DNA of 64,000 bases from Acidobacteriota bacterium (GTDB taxonomy: Bacteria > Acidobacteriota > Terriglobia > Bryobacterales > Bryobacteraceae), in NCBI GenBank assembly GCA_029776225.1, contig JAKOTR010000054.1, forward strand, positions 1 through 64,000, written 5' to 3'. The position numbers were made by a program, and so were the translations under genes. Shown here piece by piece: positions 57,717 through 64,000 of this stretch. The notes under the pieces were generated by a model that was given only the letters and a program-made list of their open reading frames with translations, made no database searches and was not told the DNA's origin. Position 1 is the stretch's first letter; each line of letters opens with the position of its first letter.

Positions 57717-58880
57717 CTACAGCGGCGACGGCGCTCCCAGTTGTTCCCGATGCACAATGCCGCCGTGGGCCCGCGTTTTGCCGTGCTCAATCAGCGACTT
57801 CATACGCACCAGGTCCTCGTCCATTTCGCGCTTCGGATCCGCGCCGAGCAGCCGCGCGACCGCATGGCCAACGATTCCCAGCGGCGGGTTGTAAGACATG
57901 CGAATCGTGATGCGCGTGCCGCCGTCGGGGTTCGGATCGAACCGCACGGTCCCGCTGTGCTCTATCGTCGCTCCCGGCAGGCTGCGCCACGAGATCAATC
58001 TGTTCTCGACGCGTTCGGTTATCTCCGCGGTCCAAGTGACCGGGATGCCGAGCGGGCCGTCAACCGTCCACAACGAGCGGTTGTTCCCCAGGTCGCGTAC
58101 CTCGCGCAAATGCGCCATGAACCGCGGGAAATTCGAGTAGCGCGACCAGAAGGAGTACACGTCCTGCACGGGCGCGTGAATGTTCACGGTTTTCTCGATG
58201 GTGACCGCGCCTGCGTGGCCGATTCCCAGCGCGCGCTTGAGTTCCATGTTGGCGGCGGCGCGCAAAAGCATCCCGCTCCCCAGAAGGCCGGCTGCCACGC
58301 CGCCAATGCCGCCCCGTTTGACGCCACCGATCAGCAGGGCCGTTCCCCCCAGCCCGGCCATCGTACGGACTGCCGGCGTCCAGTTGGTCTGCATGATTTC
58401 CCAGCGCTCGCCGGACCGCGCCCCGCCGCCCTGCAAAGCCGGAACCTCGGCTCCGGCATGCCGTTCGAGGCGGTCTTCGATTTCCATTCCGTCCGCGGCC
58501 GACTCGGCGGCCGACAGTAAAGCTCTGTATTCGCGCTCGAGCACCGGTCCTCGCAGAACCAGGCGGCCCCGCTCCGCGCGGACCTCAACGGCGTGGGGAT
58601 GCGAAACTACCCGGCCGATTCGGGCGCGAACGCGCGCGACGATCACATCCTCGTCCACGCGCCCGCTGCGCAAGATGGTTTGCGCCATCGCAGCGACGCC
58701 GCGCGCGCGATTGGACAGATCGCGTCCTGTCTTGTCAACCAGACGCTGGGCATCGTGGATGGTCCGTGCGGCTTTGTCGCGGATCAGCGCCCGCCGGCGC
58801 CTCCCCCTGTCCGGATCCGCGATGTACATGATTGCTGCGCCCGCACCCAGCCCTGCGAGTAAATTGGCGACTTTTCCCAT
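57717..58880 (-). CDS. Membrane-tethered BON and SRPBCC domain protein
   Basis: 387 residues. The N-terminus (KVANLLAGLGAGAAIMYIAD followed by RGRRRRALIRDK) is a YtxH-like membrane-proximal segment. Residues about 75-140 form a BON-like domain (VIVARVRARIGRVVSHPHAV, EVRAERGRLVLRGPV). A glycine-rich hydrophobic patch (about 175-215) leads to an SRPBCC/START-like hydrophobic-pocket domain (about 225-365: VTIEKTVNIHAPVQDVYSFW, FPRFMAHLREVRDL). The combination is common in acidobacterial and actinobacterial envelope or stress proteins. Ligand unknown. Confidence 0.8.
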   Translation of the reverse strand: MGKVANLLAGLGAGAAIMYIADPDRGRRRRALIRDKAARTIHDAQRLVDKTGRDLSNRARGVAAMAQTILRSGRVDEDVIVARVRARIGRVVSHPHAVEVRAERGRLVLRGPVLEREYRALLSAAESAADGMEIEDRLERHAGAEVPALQGGGARSGERWEIMQTNWTPAVRTMAGLGGTALLIGGVKRGGIGGVAAGLLGSGMLLRAAANMELKRALGIGHAGAVTIEKTVNIHAPVQDVYSFWSRYSNFPRFMAHLREVRDLGNNRSLWTVDGPLGIPVTWTAEITERVENRLISWRSLPGATIEHSGTVRFDPNPDGGTRITIRMSYNPPLGIVGHAVARLLGADPKREMDEDLVRMKSLIEHGKTRAHGGIVHREQLGAPSPL

Positions 58881-58962: not shown

Positions 58963-60363
58963 TCAGGCCGCTTTCCTGAGATTGACGGCTTCCATGGCGC
59001 GCCGCGCCTCGGGGGTGGACATGACTTCGTTCCAAACGCTGCCGCTGCGCGCGTTCTCTGCCATGAGCAGCATGATTCCCTGGTCGATGCCGATTACGTC
59101 CGGGCTGAACCAGTTGTCGCCAGGCTGGAACGCGTCCACGAACCCGTAACGGCCCCAGACGCGTTTCCCATAGCGATCGAGCATGGTCCGGAGAACCCTG
59201 CTGCATTCCTCAGGGAGGAACACCACCGAACCGCCGGCGGCGCACGGCGTGAGCGTGCCGTCAGGCGGGCAATAGGGGTTGCCCCAGACGCGGTAGCCGA
59301 AGGGGGAATCCGAAGCCGTGACGCCCCACAGGTCCGGCCCGTACCAGGGGAACTGCTGCGAGAGGCCGATGCAGAACTGCCGGTGCGCCATGGTGGCAAA
59401 CCGCGAGTTCTCGAAGTAGTCAGAGTAGCGGTCCTTCCGGTCGCGGAAATCAAACCAGGCGTGCGAGTACTGATGGACGAACAGCGGCGCCACCGAATCG
59501 ATGTAGGTGAAGCCTTCGTACTCGCGTACGGGCCGCCTCCAGGCGTCCCAGCAGGAAACGGGGATGGGCGACGAGGAACTCCCGATGGCGAGCAGGTACA
59601 TCGCCAGCAGCTCGGCATACTCGTCCCAGCGGTAGGGGAGAAAGCCGGTCTCGGGCGTCCAGCCATGGCAGAGCGTGTCGTGCCCGTTGAGCATCCAGCG
59701 CCAATCGACTCGGCCGAGCAAGTCGTCGGCGAGCTGGCGGATGTGCGGCCGGTCCCAGTGCGCCTTGCAATGCAGAACGCCGCACAGCAGCCAGGCCGTA
59801 TCGACGGACGACGCCTCGCTGCTCCAGATCCGTTTGCCGGACTTCACGTCCAGGAAGTGATAGAAAAACCCGCGCTCGTGCTCGACGTGGGAGGCCAGAT
59901 ATTCGAGCGTCCGCTCGACGCGGGCAAGCGGCGCGCCGCGTTCCAGGTACCCGCGGGAATCGGCGATGGCCAGGGCGCTCAGCCCGAACCCGGTGGCGGC
60001 GATGCTGGATACGTCGCGCGACTCCGGACCCTCCATGCGGGCACGGTCGCGCACCAGCCCCGTTGTGGGATCCGCCTGTTCGTAGAAAAAGAGACACGCG
60101 CGGCGCTCGACTTCGTCCAGGAGATCGATAGAATCCTGGGCACACATCGAGAGCGGCGCAAGCGCGCCCGCGCCGATCCCGGCCGTGACTAACCTCAGAA
60201 AATCCCTGCGGCCAACTGGCGCACCACCCTCCGGCCGGTACTGCCCGGCGGGTGTCAGGGACGCAACTTGTGTTTCCAGAAGGACAAGTATACCAGCGAA
60301 GGACGGAGTTGTGGTCAGCCGGCGGCGATGCGCGCCGGAGGCGCTTCCGGCCGCATCTTCCAC
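58963..60363 (-). CDS. Tat-exported glycoamylase-like (PF10091) glycoside hydrolase
   Basis: 466 residues. The GTG at 60363 is the only upstream start in frame and lies 49 bases inside the upstream glucan-synthase gene. At residues 52-70 there is a twin-arginine signal (RRDFLRLVTAGIGAGAL), then MCAQDS. The rest is a (alpha/alpha)6 barrel of the glycoamylase-like family: CLFFYEQADPTTGLVRDRA, SIAATGFGLSALAIADS, FFYHFLDVKSGKR and GWTPETGFLPYRWDEYAELL. GH144 endo-beta-1,2-glucanases belong to this superfamily. Its neighbour is a beta-1,2-glucan-synthase-like enzyme, so a beta-1,2-glucan substrate is likely but inferred. Confidence 0.8.
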   Translation of the reverse strand: MEDAAGSASGAHRRRLTTTPSFAGILVLLETQVASLTPAGQYRPEGGAPVGRRDFLRLVTAGIGAGALAPLSMCAQDSIDLLDEVERRACLFFYEQADPTTGLVRDRARMEGPESRDVSSIAATGFGLSALAIADSRGYLERGAPLARVERTLEYLASHVEHERGFFYHFLDVKSGKRIWSSEASSVDTAWLLCGVLHCKAHWDRPHIRQLADDLLGRVDWRWMLNGHDTLCHGWTPETGFLPYRWDEYAELLAMYLLAIGSSSSPIPVSCWDAWRRPVREYEGFTYIDSVAPLFVHQYSHAWFDFRDRKDRYSDYFENSRFATMAHRQFCIGLSQQFPWYGPDLWGVTASDSPFGYRVWGNPYCPPDGTLTPCAAGGSVVFLPEECSRVLRTMLDRYGKRVWGRYGFVDAFQPGDNWFSPDVIGIDQGIMLLMAENARSGSVWNEVMSTPEARRAMEAVNLRKAA

Positions 60364-63300
60364 TGCTCGTAGCGGCGCGAAAGCTCCTCGGGAAGCGGTT
60401 GCTCAACGGGACCGCGATCGAGCAAAGCGGGCAGGCGTTCCTGCAACAGATACTCGGTGGCCTGCACGAGAGGATCGGCATGGAACCGGCGCTGCATCGG
60501 GGCGTCCAGGAGTGTGTTCGCAAGCGCGAGCAGGCCCATCCCCTGGTGGTGTGCCATGAAGGCCCGGATGACTCGCGGCGTTCCCGGCGAGTCGCTGTAA
60601 TCCGCGGACTCGAAGAATCCGTAGCGCCCGGTCCAGCCGAGAGCCTGCATCGCCCGCAGGTTCCGGGTGGCGGCCGCGTGGTCGACCATCAGGGCGAGCA
60701 TGGAAGCGTAGGGCGCAATGACGAGGTCGCCCGGCCAAGCGCGCTTCAGGCCGATATAGGGCACTCCGAAGGCGCGGTACTGATAACTCAGGGCGCTGTC
60801 GCGCGCGCTGTAAGCCGCTTCGGAGATGCCCCACGGCACGCCGCGCTCGGCGCCGTAGGCCTGCTGGATCCGTACGGCCGCTGTCAGGCTCTCACCCAAC
60901 AGGGTGTCCCCGTAGGTGCGCATGAACAGCGCGGGCATCAGGTACTCGAACATGGTGCCGGTCCAGGAATACAGCGTGCGCGTTCCCTTGTAGAACGCCA
61001 GCTTGCGGCCGAGGCGGAACCACGCCTCGCGCGGCACATCGCCTTTGGCGATGGCCACGAACACTGCCGTGCGCGCCTCCGTGGCCAGCAGGTCGTAGTA
61101 AGCCGGATCGAGCGTGCCGGACAGCAGATCGTACCCCACGCGCATGAGCTTGCGCTTGCGGTCGAACAGCAAGGAAAAGTCCATGTGCTCTACAAAGCTC
61201 TCCGCCGCGGCAGCCTGGCGCTCCAAGCGCTCGATCAGGCCGGTGGCGAACGAACGGGCTTCGCCAAGCGCGCCGTCGAGCTTTTGAAGCACGTCCCGCA
61301 GCTCCGGCGGAATGGGCAGTGCGGATTCCAGCACGGCGGCGATCTCCCGCGAGATGGCCGCGTAGTGCCCGGGAAGTTCATCGAAGCAAACGGGACACTC
61401 CAGCAGCTTCAGCAAACCGCTCAGGGCGGGATTCTTGGCGTGAAACCTGAGTTCCTGTTCGTACGGAGCGTCAAGCCACGGCGCAAGCGCGCAGAGCTGG
61501 CTGATCGCGGCCTCGACGCGGGCCGCAAGCGCGTTGTACCAGTAAGTGACTTCGCCGGCCTGCCCCGGTTCGAGCTTGGCGCAGGTCCACTCCAGGCGGG
61601 GCAGCAGGCTGTGGATCATTTCACGGACCTCCGCCAGCACGCTCTCCCAGAAGAAAAGGTCCGTGGGCCGGTACTCAAGCTGGCGCACAAGGCTGGCCAG
61701 CAGCCGTGAGATCGAACTGGTGCGCGCGGCGGCGGGAAGGACGCTGCGCAGCCGCAGGCAGTGGGCGCGCATTCCGGCCAGCGCGCTCGCATCGATGATC
61801 GGAGCGCGAAGCGCCTCCAGGCAGCCCTGCTTCACGACAATCAGCGCCGCCGCAAGATTGCCGCTATCGACGGCGGAGATATAGAGCGGCGGCAACGGGC
61901 GGAGCGTGTTCGTGTCATACCAGTTGTAAAAGTGGCCGCGATGCCTGCGCAGGCGCATCATGGTGTTGAACAGGTTTTCCAAGCGATCACCGAATTCGCT
62001 GAGCGTGAGAAAGCCGAAATCCAGCGCGGCAAGATTGGACGCGGCCTGCAGGCCGATGTTGGTCGGCGAGGTGCGGCAAGCGGTACGGGGCGGATCCTCC
62101 TGCACGTTGTCCGGCACAAGCCAGTTGTGCTCGGCGGCGGAGAGGTCGCCGAAATAGCGCCACGTGCGCAGCGCGATGTCGCGGAGGTAATCGGCATCCG
62201 GAGCCTTCTTCCCTGCCCTGGGCGCCCGGTTCAGCCACGCGGCAACGAGCGGGGACAAGAGCCACAGTTCCAGCACCGCGACGGCCAGTATGTCCGTGGC
62301 GAGGCCGGCGGGCAGGCACAAACACACGAACACCGCGGCCAAGGGACCAGCCAGCAGATAGCGCTCGAGCAGCCCCGCTTTTCGTCCCCCCTCCTCGGAC
62401 TGGGCCATGGTTTCCCATTCAAGCAGCCTTCTCCGCGTGACGTGGACGCGGATGAGAGTGCGCACCACGGCGTCCGCCATCAGAACAGCCTGGTGGACAA
62501 GGAATGTCAGCCGCATCAGCGCATCGGCGTGGCCGCGCAGGAGCTGAAAGCCGATTTCACGGAAATACGGCCGCCAAAAGCGAGCGGGCGGCAGCCGCAC
62601 AAGCGCCCACGTCGCCTCGAAATACGCGGGCAGCAGGAGAAACGCGCACGCAAGCAGCGTCCAGCGGTACGCCGGAGGCGGCAAAAAGAACCAGCCCGCC
62701 AGGATGAGGGCGAGCAGAGAAATTTCAAACAGGCTGCGCCGGAGATTGTCGGCGATTTTCCAGCGCGAGAGTACTGGCAGAGGGTTGGAAGTGCGCCCGC
62801 CCCGAGGCGCCGGAACCGAAGGCAACAGCCACCTTGCGATCTGCCAGTCGCCCCGCGTCCAGCGGTGTTTGCGCTTTGACCAGGCCTGATATTTGGCGGG
62901 AAAGTCGTCGATGAACTCCAGGTCGGTCACCAGCCCCGTGCGCGCGTACTCGCCCTCGAGGAGGTCGTGGCTGAGCAGAGTGTTTTCGGGGAAACGGCCG
63001 CCCGTCACGGCGTCAAACGCGCGCAGATCGTAGATGCCCTTGCCGGTGAAAATCGCCTGGCCGTACAGGTCCTGATAAACGTCGGAGACAGCGGTCGTGT
63101 AGGGATCGAACCCCGTCTGCCCGCTGAAGAACCGCGCCAGGCGCGAGCGGCAGGCCGAATCGACGCTCACCGAGATGCGCGGCTGGAGGATGGCGTAGCC
63201 TTCGCGAACCGTCCGCGTGGCGGGATCAATTACCGGCCGGTTGAGCGGGTGCGCGATTGTGGCCACCAGCATGCGCGCGGTGTCGCGCGGCAGTTGCGTG

Positions 63301-64000
63301 TCGCTGTCGAGCGTGATGACGAAGCGATACGAGTTCAAGTCTGAAAGGTCGCCGATCTTCAGCGAAAAGGCGTCGTCTCCGCCGAGCAACAGGCGGTTGA
63401 AATCTTCCAGCTTGCCGCGCTTGCGCTCGTGCCCCATCCAGACGGATTCCGATTCGTTCCATTCGCGGCGGCGGTGAAACAAATAGAACGGCGAACCGGC
63501 GGCGGAACGGTAGCGCTCATTGAGCAGTTGAATTCCCTTCGCGCAGACATCGAGCAGGTGATCGTTCTCACCGTAGGCATAGCGGGAATCGGCGAAGTCC
63601 GTCAGCAGCGCGAACGACAAGTTGGGATCGCGGTTAGCGAGATAGTGGATTTCCAGGCGCTCGAGCAGGCGTTCCACTCCCTGGCGGGAAAGCAGCAGCG
63701 TGGGGACCACCACGAACGTCCGGCAATCGTCGGGAATGCCCTCGGAGAAATCGAGTCTCGGGAGGCGGCGCGGCGGCAGCAGATGACTCACCAGCAGATT
63801 CATAAAGGCAACCGCTGCCTGGCTCGCCGGAATCAACAGCAGCACGGCCAGCCAAAGCGGCGCCTCTGGCAGCAAGGCGTACACCGCTGCGATGATCGCA
63901 AACGTGGTGAGTGAGATGCCGCCCAAATAAAGCGCATTCGGCCTGGCGTAGAAGGCGTCGCGCAGCCGGCCTGCAAGCGGCGGGCGGTACCCTGCGCGCT
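60315..64000 (-). CDS. Cyclic beta-1,2-glucan synthase-like protein (GT84 plus glycoamylase-like domain), 5' part outside window
   Basis: About 1227 residues visible. The frame runs off the right edge, so the N-terminus is missing. After two membrane segments comes the GT84 module: LDFSEGIPDDCRTFVVVPTL, DSDTQLPRD (about 63,290-63,315) and KRKHRWTRGDWQ (about 62,840-62,880). More membrane helices follow, then the glycoamylase-like part with YSWTGTMFEYLMPALFMRTY and GFFESADYSDSPGTPRVIR, ending at 60315. Cyclic glucan synthases continue with a GH94 phosphorylase of about 800 residues. Here the stop precedes it. Likely product: linear or unregulated-length beta-1,2-glucan in the envelope. Confidence 0.88.
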   Translation of the reverse strand, partial: RAGYRPPLAGRLRDAFYARPNALYLGGISLTTFAIIAAVYALLPEAPLWLAVLLLIPASQAAVAFMNLLVSHLLPPRRLPRLDFSEGIPDDCRTFVVVPTLLLSRQGVERLLERLEIHYLANRDPNLSFALLTDFADSRYAYGENDHLLDVCAKGIQLLNERYRSAAGSPFYLFHRRREWNESESVWMGHERKRGKLEDFNRLLLGGDDAFSLKIGDLSDLNSYRFVITLDSDTQLPRDTARMLVATIAHPLNRPVIDPATRTVREGYAILQPRISVSVDSACRSRLARFFSGQTGFDPYTTAVSDVYQDLYGQAIFTGKGIYDLRAFDAVTGGRFPENTLLSHDLLEGEYARTGLVTDLEFIDDFPAKYQAWSKRKHRWTRGDWQIARWLLPSVPAPRGGRTSNPLPVLSRWKIADNLRRSLFEISLLALILAGWFFLPPPAYRWTLLACAFLLLPAYFEATWALVRLPPARFWRPYFREIGFQLLRGHADALMRLTFLVHQAVLMADAVVRTLIRVHVTRRRLLEWETMAQSEEGGRKAGLLERYLLAGPLAAVFVCLCLPAGLATDILAVAVLELWLLSPLVAAWLNRAPRAGKKAPDADYLRDIALRTWRYFGDLSAAEHNWLVPDNVQEDPPRTACRTSPTNIGLQAASNLAALDFGFLTLSEFGDRLENLFNTMMRLRRHRGHFYNWYDTNTLRPLPPLYISAVDSGNLAAALIVVKQGCLEALRAPIIDASALAGMRAHCLRLRSVLPAAARTSSISRLLASLVRQLEYRPTDLFFWESVLAEVREMIHSLLPRLEWTCAKLEPGQAGEVTYWYNALAARVEAAISQLCALAPWLDAPYEQELRFHAKNPALSGLLKLLECPVCFDELPGHYAAISREIAAVLESALPIPPELRDVLQKLDGALGEARSFATGLIERLERQAAAAESFVEHMDFSLLFDRKRKLMRVGYDLLSGTLDPAYYDLLATEARTAVFVAIAKGDVPREAWFRLGRKLAFYKGTRTLYSWTGTMFEYLMPALFMRTYGDTLLGESLTAAVRIQQAYGAERGVPWGISEAAYSARDSALSYQYRAFGVPYIGLKRAWPGDLVIAPYASMLALMVDHAAATRNLRAMQALGWTGRYGFFESADYSDSPGTPRVIRAFMAHHQGMGLLALANTLLDAPMQRRFHADPLVQATEYLLQERLPALLDRGPVEQPLPEELSRRYEQWKMRPEAPPARIAAG

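Follow-up and report, generated by a model that had tools for sequence, protein, structure and literature searches.

The window, the whole stretch of DNA analysed here, comprises 64,000 nucleotides, bases 1-64000 of contig 93 of an acidobacterial genome. This genome is a fragmented draft of 115 contigs with a size of 5.18 Mb and a completeness of 97.7%. The window edge cuts a gene for a GT84-GH189 beta-1,2-glucan synthase without GH94, of which bases 60315..64000 on the minus strand, recognised as an ORF and by homology, lie inside. To complete the gene we fetched the rest of the contig, an extension to the right that an earlier note on this DNA had advised. The complete ORF runs from 60315 to 64841 on the minus strand of the same contig and, read from its GTG start codon, encodes 1508 aa; residues 14 and 24 are ATG codons that could serve as starts instead. 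Just beyond the same edge sits the gene of an ABC exporter (64845-66752, minus strand, outside the window in continued window numbering), a TMD-NBD half-transporter of 635 aa, which ends 3 bp before the synthase GTG. On the other side of the synthase the minus strand encodes a predicted GH144-type endo-beta-1,2-glucanase with a twin-arginine signal (58963..60363; PF10091 with 232 bits).

Further genes surround this group. Downstream of the hydrolase, at 57717-58880 on the minus strand, lies a gene whose 387-aa product starts like YtxH and contains an SRPBCC/polyketide-cyclase domain. Upstream of the ABC gene, again outside the window, we found a carbohydrate cluster (contig 67019-74978; L003:11019-18978) that encodes a feruloyl-esterase-like protein with a CBM48-like domain, a 634-aa secreted protein without Pfam match, a GH16 glucanase and an outer-membrane receptor-like protein. 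The operon neighbours that recur across the family are only the ABC gene, the synthase and sometimes GH144. The esterase, the unknown hydrolase, GH16 and the downstream SRPBCC genes were not found near the other synthases of the family.

A comparison of the synthase with PDB sequences gave E=1.7e-247 for Agrobacterium Cgs and E=3.9e-118 for the cyclase domain (GH189) of Thermoanaerobacter italicus. In the alignment to Agrobacterium Cgs the GT84 glycosyltransferase core covers 62742..63749 (minus strand), and its residues D415, D512, D514, D626 and R660-W661 correspond to D527, D624, D626, D739 and R773-W of Cgs. The priming tyrosine, Cgs Y694, aligns with Y581 (codon 63099-63101). The roles of these residues are taken from the work on Agrobacterium Cgs (PMC10901819). 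The GH189 cyclisation/transglycosylation domain extends over 60423..62186 (minus strand) according to the alignment to 8wy1 and Cgs. With residue roles from the TiCGS study (PMC10834661), the acid/base aligns as E1255 (codon 61077-61079) and the nucleophile as E1341 (60819-60821), together with E1299 and H1431-H1432. The domain has both catalytic glutamates, the supporting Glu, the His-His pair and the fold of GH189. All 12 key residues checked were conserved without exception in the 54 GH94-less and 52 full-length synthases compared, and the priming tyrosine was present in each of the 54.

An AlphaFold model of residues 309-1508, which comprises GT84 and GH189 and no C-terminal domain, was obtained with a pLDDT of 90 and a pTM of 0.91. 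Its TM-score, normalised by query length, was 0.83 against Agrobacterium Cgs; against the crystal structure of GH189 (8wy1), normalised by target length, it was 0.92. The GH189 alignment stops at residue ~1480 and the final ~35 residues are disordered in the model. This shows that the gene stops at the GH189/GH94 boundary, in agreement with the earlier reading: a short C-terminal tail, predicted to be disordered, and the stop (60315..60422, minus strand) are found where full-length synthases begin GH94. The protein is a member of GT84 and GH189 and stands outside the canonical three-module architecture.

The description as a beta-1,2-glucan synthase without GH94 was confirmed by the intact GT84 and GH189 modules, by the matches to Cgs and to the GH189 domain, and by a search of the whole 97.7%-complete genome with two Pfam models, which found no GH94. 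A separate GH94 gene, which the earlier note had named as evidence against its proposal, was thus absent, and its view that such a synthase must size its product differently still stands. The C-terminal tail of the synthase held no GH94 remnant; a 52-bit GH94 match on the synthase came from the GH189 tail within the query. PF10091 domains occur only twice in the genome, namely in the GH189 part of the synthase and in the adjoining hydrolase. Among 26 other near-complete genomes with a GH94-less synthase, 22 were devoid of any GH94, and the matches in the 26 were two of ~85 bits (in 947-aa frames), one of 45 bits and one sub-threshold match of 19 bits. Given these few matches and none in the source genome, we rejected GH94 supplied in trans as a general solution.

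A synthase was present in 104 of the 396 acidobacterial genomes surveyed, and in approximately one quarter of these 104 the frames were merely about 1400-1560 aa long. Among the best 80 matches of a scan of a genome collection, full-length synthases came from some 19 phyla and GH94-less ones from Acidobacteriota only. Further GH94-less synthases came from a survey of the family to which the window belongs, with relatives at 60%, 57% and 53% identity. The cultured Terriglobus albidus also has a synthase of this kind. A first ranking of the matches had suggested independent GH94 losses, but all GH94-less synthases fall into a single clade of the trees. A careful mixture-model tree grouped all 13 sampled GH94-less synthases together with a support of 100/100, and in a larger quick tree the same held for all 54, all from Acidobacteriota (SH-aLRT 100). 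Since both trees are unrooted, loss of GH94 and its primitive absence are indistinguishable, and the GH94-less form could be the architecture before the GH94 fusion. A frame break in the synthase gene was seen at 2 of the 54 loci (L070, L198).

Two genomes of a distant family, G125 (L071, L081) and G367 (L072, L082), each carry a GH94-less as well as a full-length synthase. Their short copies nest within the window's family, which suggests horizontal transfer. In a further genome (L073:7867-10821, G121) the synthase gene is broken into separate GH189 and GH94 fragments and is apparently decaying.

We then compared the surroundings of the synthase genes, counting GH94-less loci with upstream sequence and full-length loci with at least 2 kb of it. 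A homologue of the ABC gene lay directly upstream on the same strand at all 54 assessable GH94-less loci (35/35 in the first sets and 19/19 in the family set), and at none of 76 full-length loci from many phyla (0/63 and 0/13). In many pairs the ABC stop and the synthase start share 4 bp or are no more than 15 bp apart. The sole full-length synthase with an orthologue nearby (L210:4087-16140, G497) has it ~1 kb downstream (697 bits). Across the 396 genomes, close orthologues (>690 bits) were found in the genomes with GH94-less synthases and in G289. In the latter the ABC gene stands divergently beside a GH144 gene with no synthase adjoining (L165:6617-10129), and a full-length synthase is encoded about 300 kb away from this pair. 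The neighbourhoods at L210 and L165 tie the pump family to beta-1,2-glucan.

From these data we propose, with a probability of about 0.7, that the operon serves to make and export cyclic beta-1,2-glucan and that no phosphorylase takes part. The synthase, facing the cytoplasm, would autoglycosylate Y581 as primer, and GT84 would extend a beta-1,2-glucan on it from UDP-glucose. GH189 would subsequently cut the chain and close the ring by retaining transglycosylation through E1255 and E1341, with no trimming by a phosphorylase. Two factors would then govern ring size, the processivity of GT84 and the subsites of GH189, for which a minimum ring of about 17 and a substrate of about 21 are known. 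We accordingly expect a more heterogeneous set of rings, which added phosphate would not shorten. The ABC exporter encoded upstream would move the ring across the inner membrane. In the source genome and some others the neighbouring GH144 enzyme, in the periplasm or outside the cell, may trim or recycle the exported glucan. A more specific version, which is possible and which we advance only tentatively, is a self-sufficient machine, in which the synthase passes the ring directly to the co-encoded ABC pump in a complex and the size results from cyclase geometry and export instead of phosphorolysis, with rings possibly outside the usual 17-25.

Alternatively, the synthase might produce beta-1,2-glucan that is linear or far longer. 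The GH94 landscape has been proposed to arrange the chain for cyclisation (PMC10901819); in its absence the chain would not be folded back and GH189 would transglycosylate between molecules. The ABC pump would export linear chains for trimming by the GH144 enzyme, a type known to cut beta-1,2-glucan (PMC12102758). Consistent with this, GH189 yields linear products from short substrates (PMC10834661), and Agrobacterium Cgs loses its function when the whole C-terminal half is deleted, while the GH94 active site is dispensable (PMC10901819). Judged by this deletion, an enzyme without GH94 might depend on some other scaffold in its place or make another product. However, the isolated T. italicus GH189 domain forms rings of DP >=17 from linear chains of about >=21 in the absence of GH94 (PMC10834661), and the full GH189 catalytic set is invariant across the clade. 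We thus regard a linear product as unlikely; it seems that the synthases of acidobacteria either lost their dependence on the C-terminal half or never had one. A literature search returned no data on the product or activity of an acidobacterial member.

The ABC gene could, furthermore, be a mere transcriptional neighbour that exports something else, e.g. a lipid. Its best score among the curated families was for MsbA, with no curated cut-off reached, and in some genomes its orthologues do not adjoin a synthase. Membership in the ChvA/NdvA families was ruled out by the curated scores, as the protein obtained 180 of 585 bits with TIGR01192 and 229 of 733 bits with NF010178, below both cut-offs. 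A neighbour with an unrelated cargo is nevertheless hard to reconcile with the strict linkage at 54 of 54 loci across a deep clade and with the further links to a full-length synthase and to GH144. In addition, Agrobacterium Cgs works on the cytoplasmic face and its membrane domain has no export channel (PMC10901819), such that a separate exporter is needed and the upstream pump would be the natural one. We therefore consider an unrelated cargo improbable.

The hydrolase has GH144 beta-1,2-glucanases as its best solved relatives (XcSGL, E=2.8e-63). It carries the twin-arginine motif RRDFLRL at residues 52-58 (R52-R53), the general acid E251 (codon 59611-59613) and a candidate base D188 (59800-59802), with residue roles from PMC12102758. 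The model is of moderate quality (pLDDT 69) and its fold is nearest to GH144, such that sequence, fold and both residues place the protein in this family. The earlier description as a Tat-exported protein of the beta-1,2-glucanase superfamily is in agreement with PF10091, the GH144 relatives and the predicted signal. The gene begins inside the 3' end of the synthase, as the earlier note stated, only if translation truly starts at the GTG at 60363, in which case the overlap is 49 bp; the first 60 codons contain no other ATG, GTG or TTG. Both E251 and D188 are invariant among the aligned linked homologues, most of which carry a twin-arginine signal, while L187 and L193 have no evident motif.

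The earlier note had advised a search of other acidobacteria for the same synthase-hydrolase pair. The pair recurs at 16 of the 54 GH94-less loci, and at the other 38 no GH144 gene was nearby. The linked genes are found upstream, downstream, divergent or convergent, and a fixed operon of the two was rejected on these grounds. On the tree the linkage requires at least nine changes, i.e. it was gained or lost repeatedly. With matched flanks of 4.5 kb, GH144 was found at 10 of 32 GH94-less and 0 of 49 full-length loci (Fisher p=3e-5, a value that ignores relatedness). The recurrent linkage points to a substrate shared with the synthase rather than to an obligatory length controller. The earlier note had suggested that the pair may follow a different length-control scheme, in which the exported hydrolase would replace GH94. 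In favour of this, the two genes overlap or adjoin each other in the window, their linkage recurs, and E. coli OpgD, a beta-1,2-glucanase outside the cytoplasm, can fix the final length of linear glucans, so that trimming after export is conceivable. Ring size, however, must be fixed before closure, and twin-arginine export would put the hydrolase across the membrane from the catalytic domains of the synthase, which in the known enzyme work in the cytoplasm. Together with the unconserved linkage and the varied arrangements this makes such a role very unlikely.

The short form occurs in dozens of independent genomes, single-contig ones included, where it forms a single clade, keeps its active sites intact and bears no trace of GH94; moreover, the next gene follows immediately. 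Despite the draft state of the genome, this refutes the idea that the short gene is a broken or mis-assembled full-length synthase.

The preferred reading, a phosphorylase-free operon for cyclic glucan, bears on two questions: how ring size is controlled, and why deletion of the GH94 half kills the Agrobacterium enzyme though its active site is dispensable. Soil acidobacteria with a shortened ring-glucan enzyme provide a natural test of whether GH94, the presumed determinant of ring size, is needed, and a conserved natural enzyme without this half (about half of the protein) makes both questions directly testable. It would also be a much smaller enzyme for structural work and glucan production, and the linked pumps are candidates for an exporter family in organisms that lack ChvA. 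In a literature search we found no description of GH94-less synthases or of acidobacterial cyclic glucan.

Compared with known systems, the synthase shares with Agrobacterium Cgs (PDB 8rf9, 8rf0) the N-terminal domain, GT84, the membrane region, the priming tyrosine, GH189 and all key residues. It differs in the missing GH94 C-terminal half (1508 vs 2818 aa) and in the dedicated ABC gene directly upstream, which belongs to a subfamily other than ChvA. The GH189 domain of the T. italicus CGS (8wy1), which was excised from a CGS homologue and studied on its own, has 37% identity over the domain (Foldseek) and the same acid/base, nucleophile, supporting Glu and His-His pair. The hydrolase shares fold, general acid and candidate base residue with the GH144 enzymes XcSGL (8xul) and CpSGL (5gzk), from which it differs by its twin-arginine signal and by being encoded beside a synthase. 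Like the ChvA/NdvA/Cgt exporters, the pump is a half-transporter of the ABCB type whose partner is a cyclic glucan synthase, and the task proposed for it is the same, whereas its score far below the curated ChvA cut-off and the gene order, ABC then synthase, set it apart as a separate subfamily.
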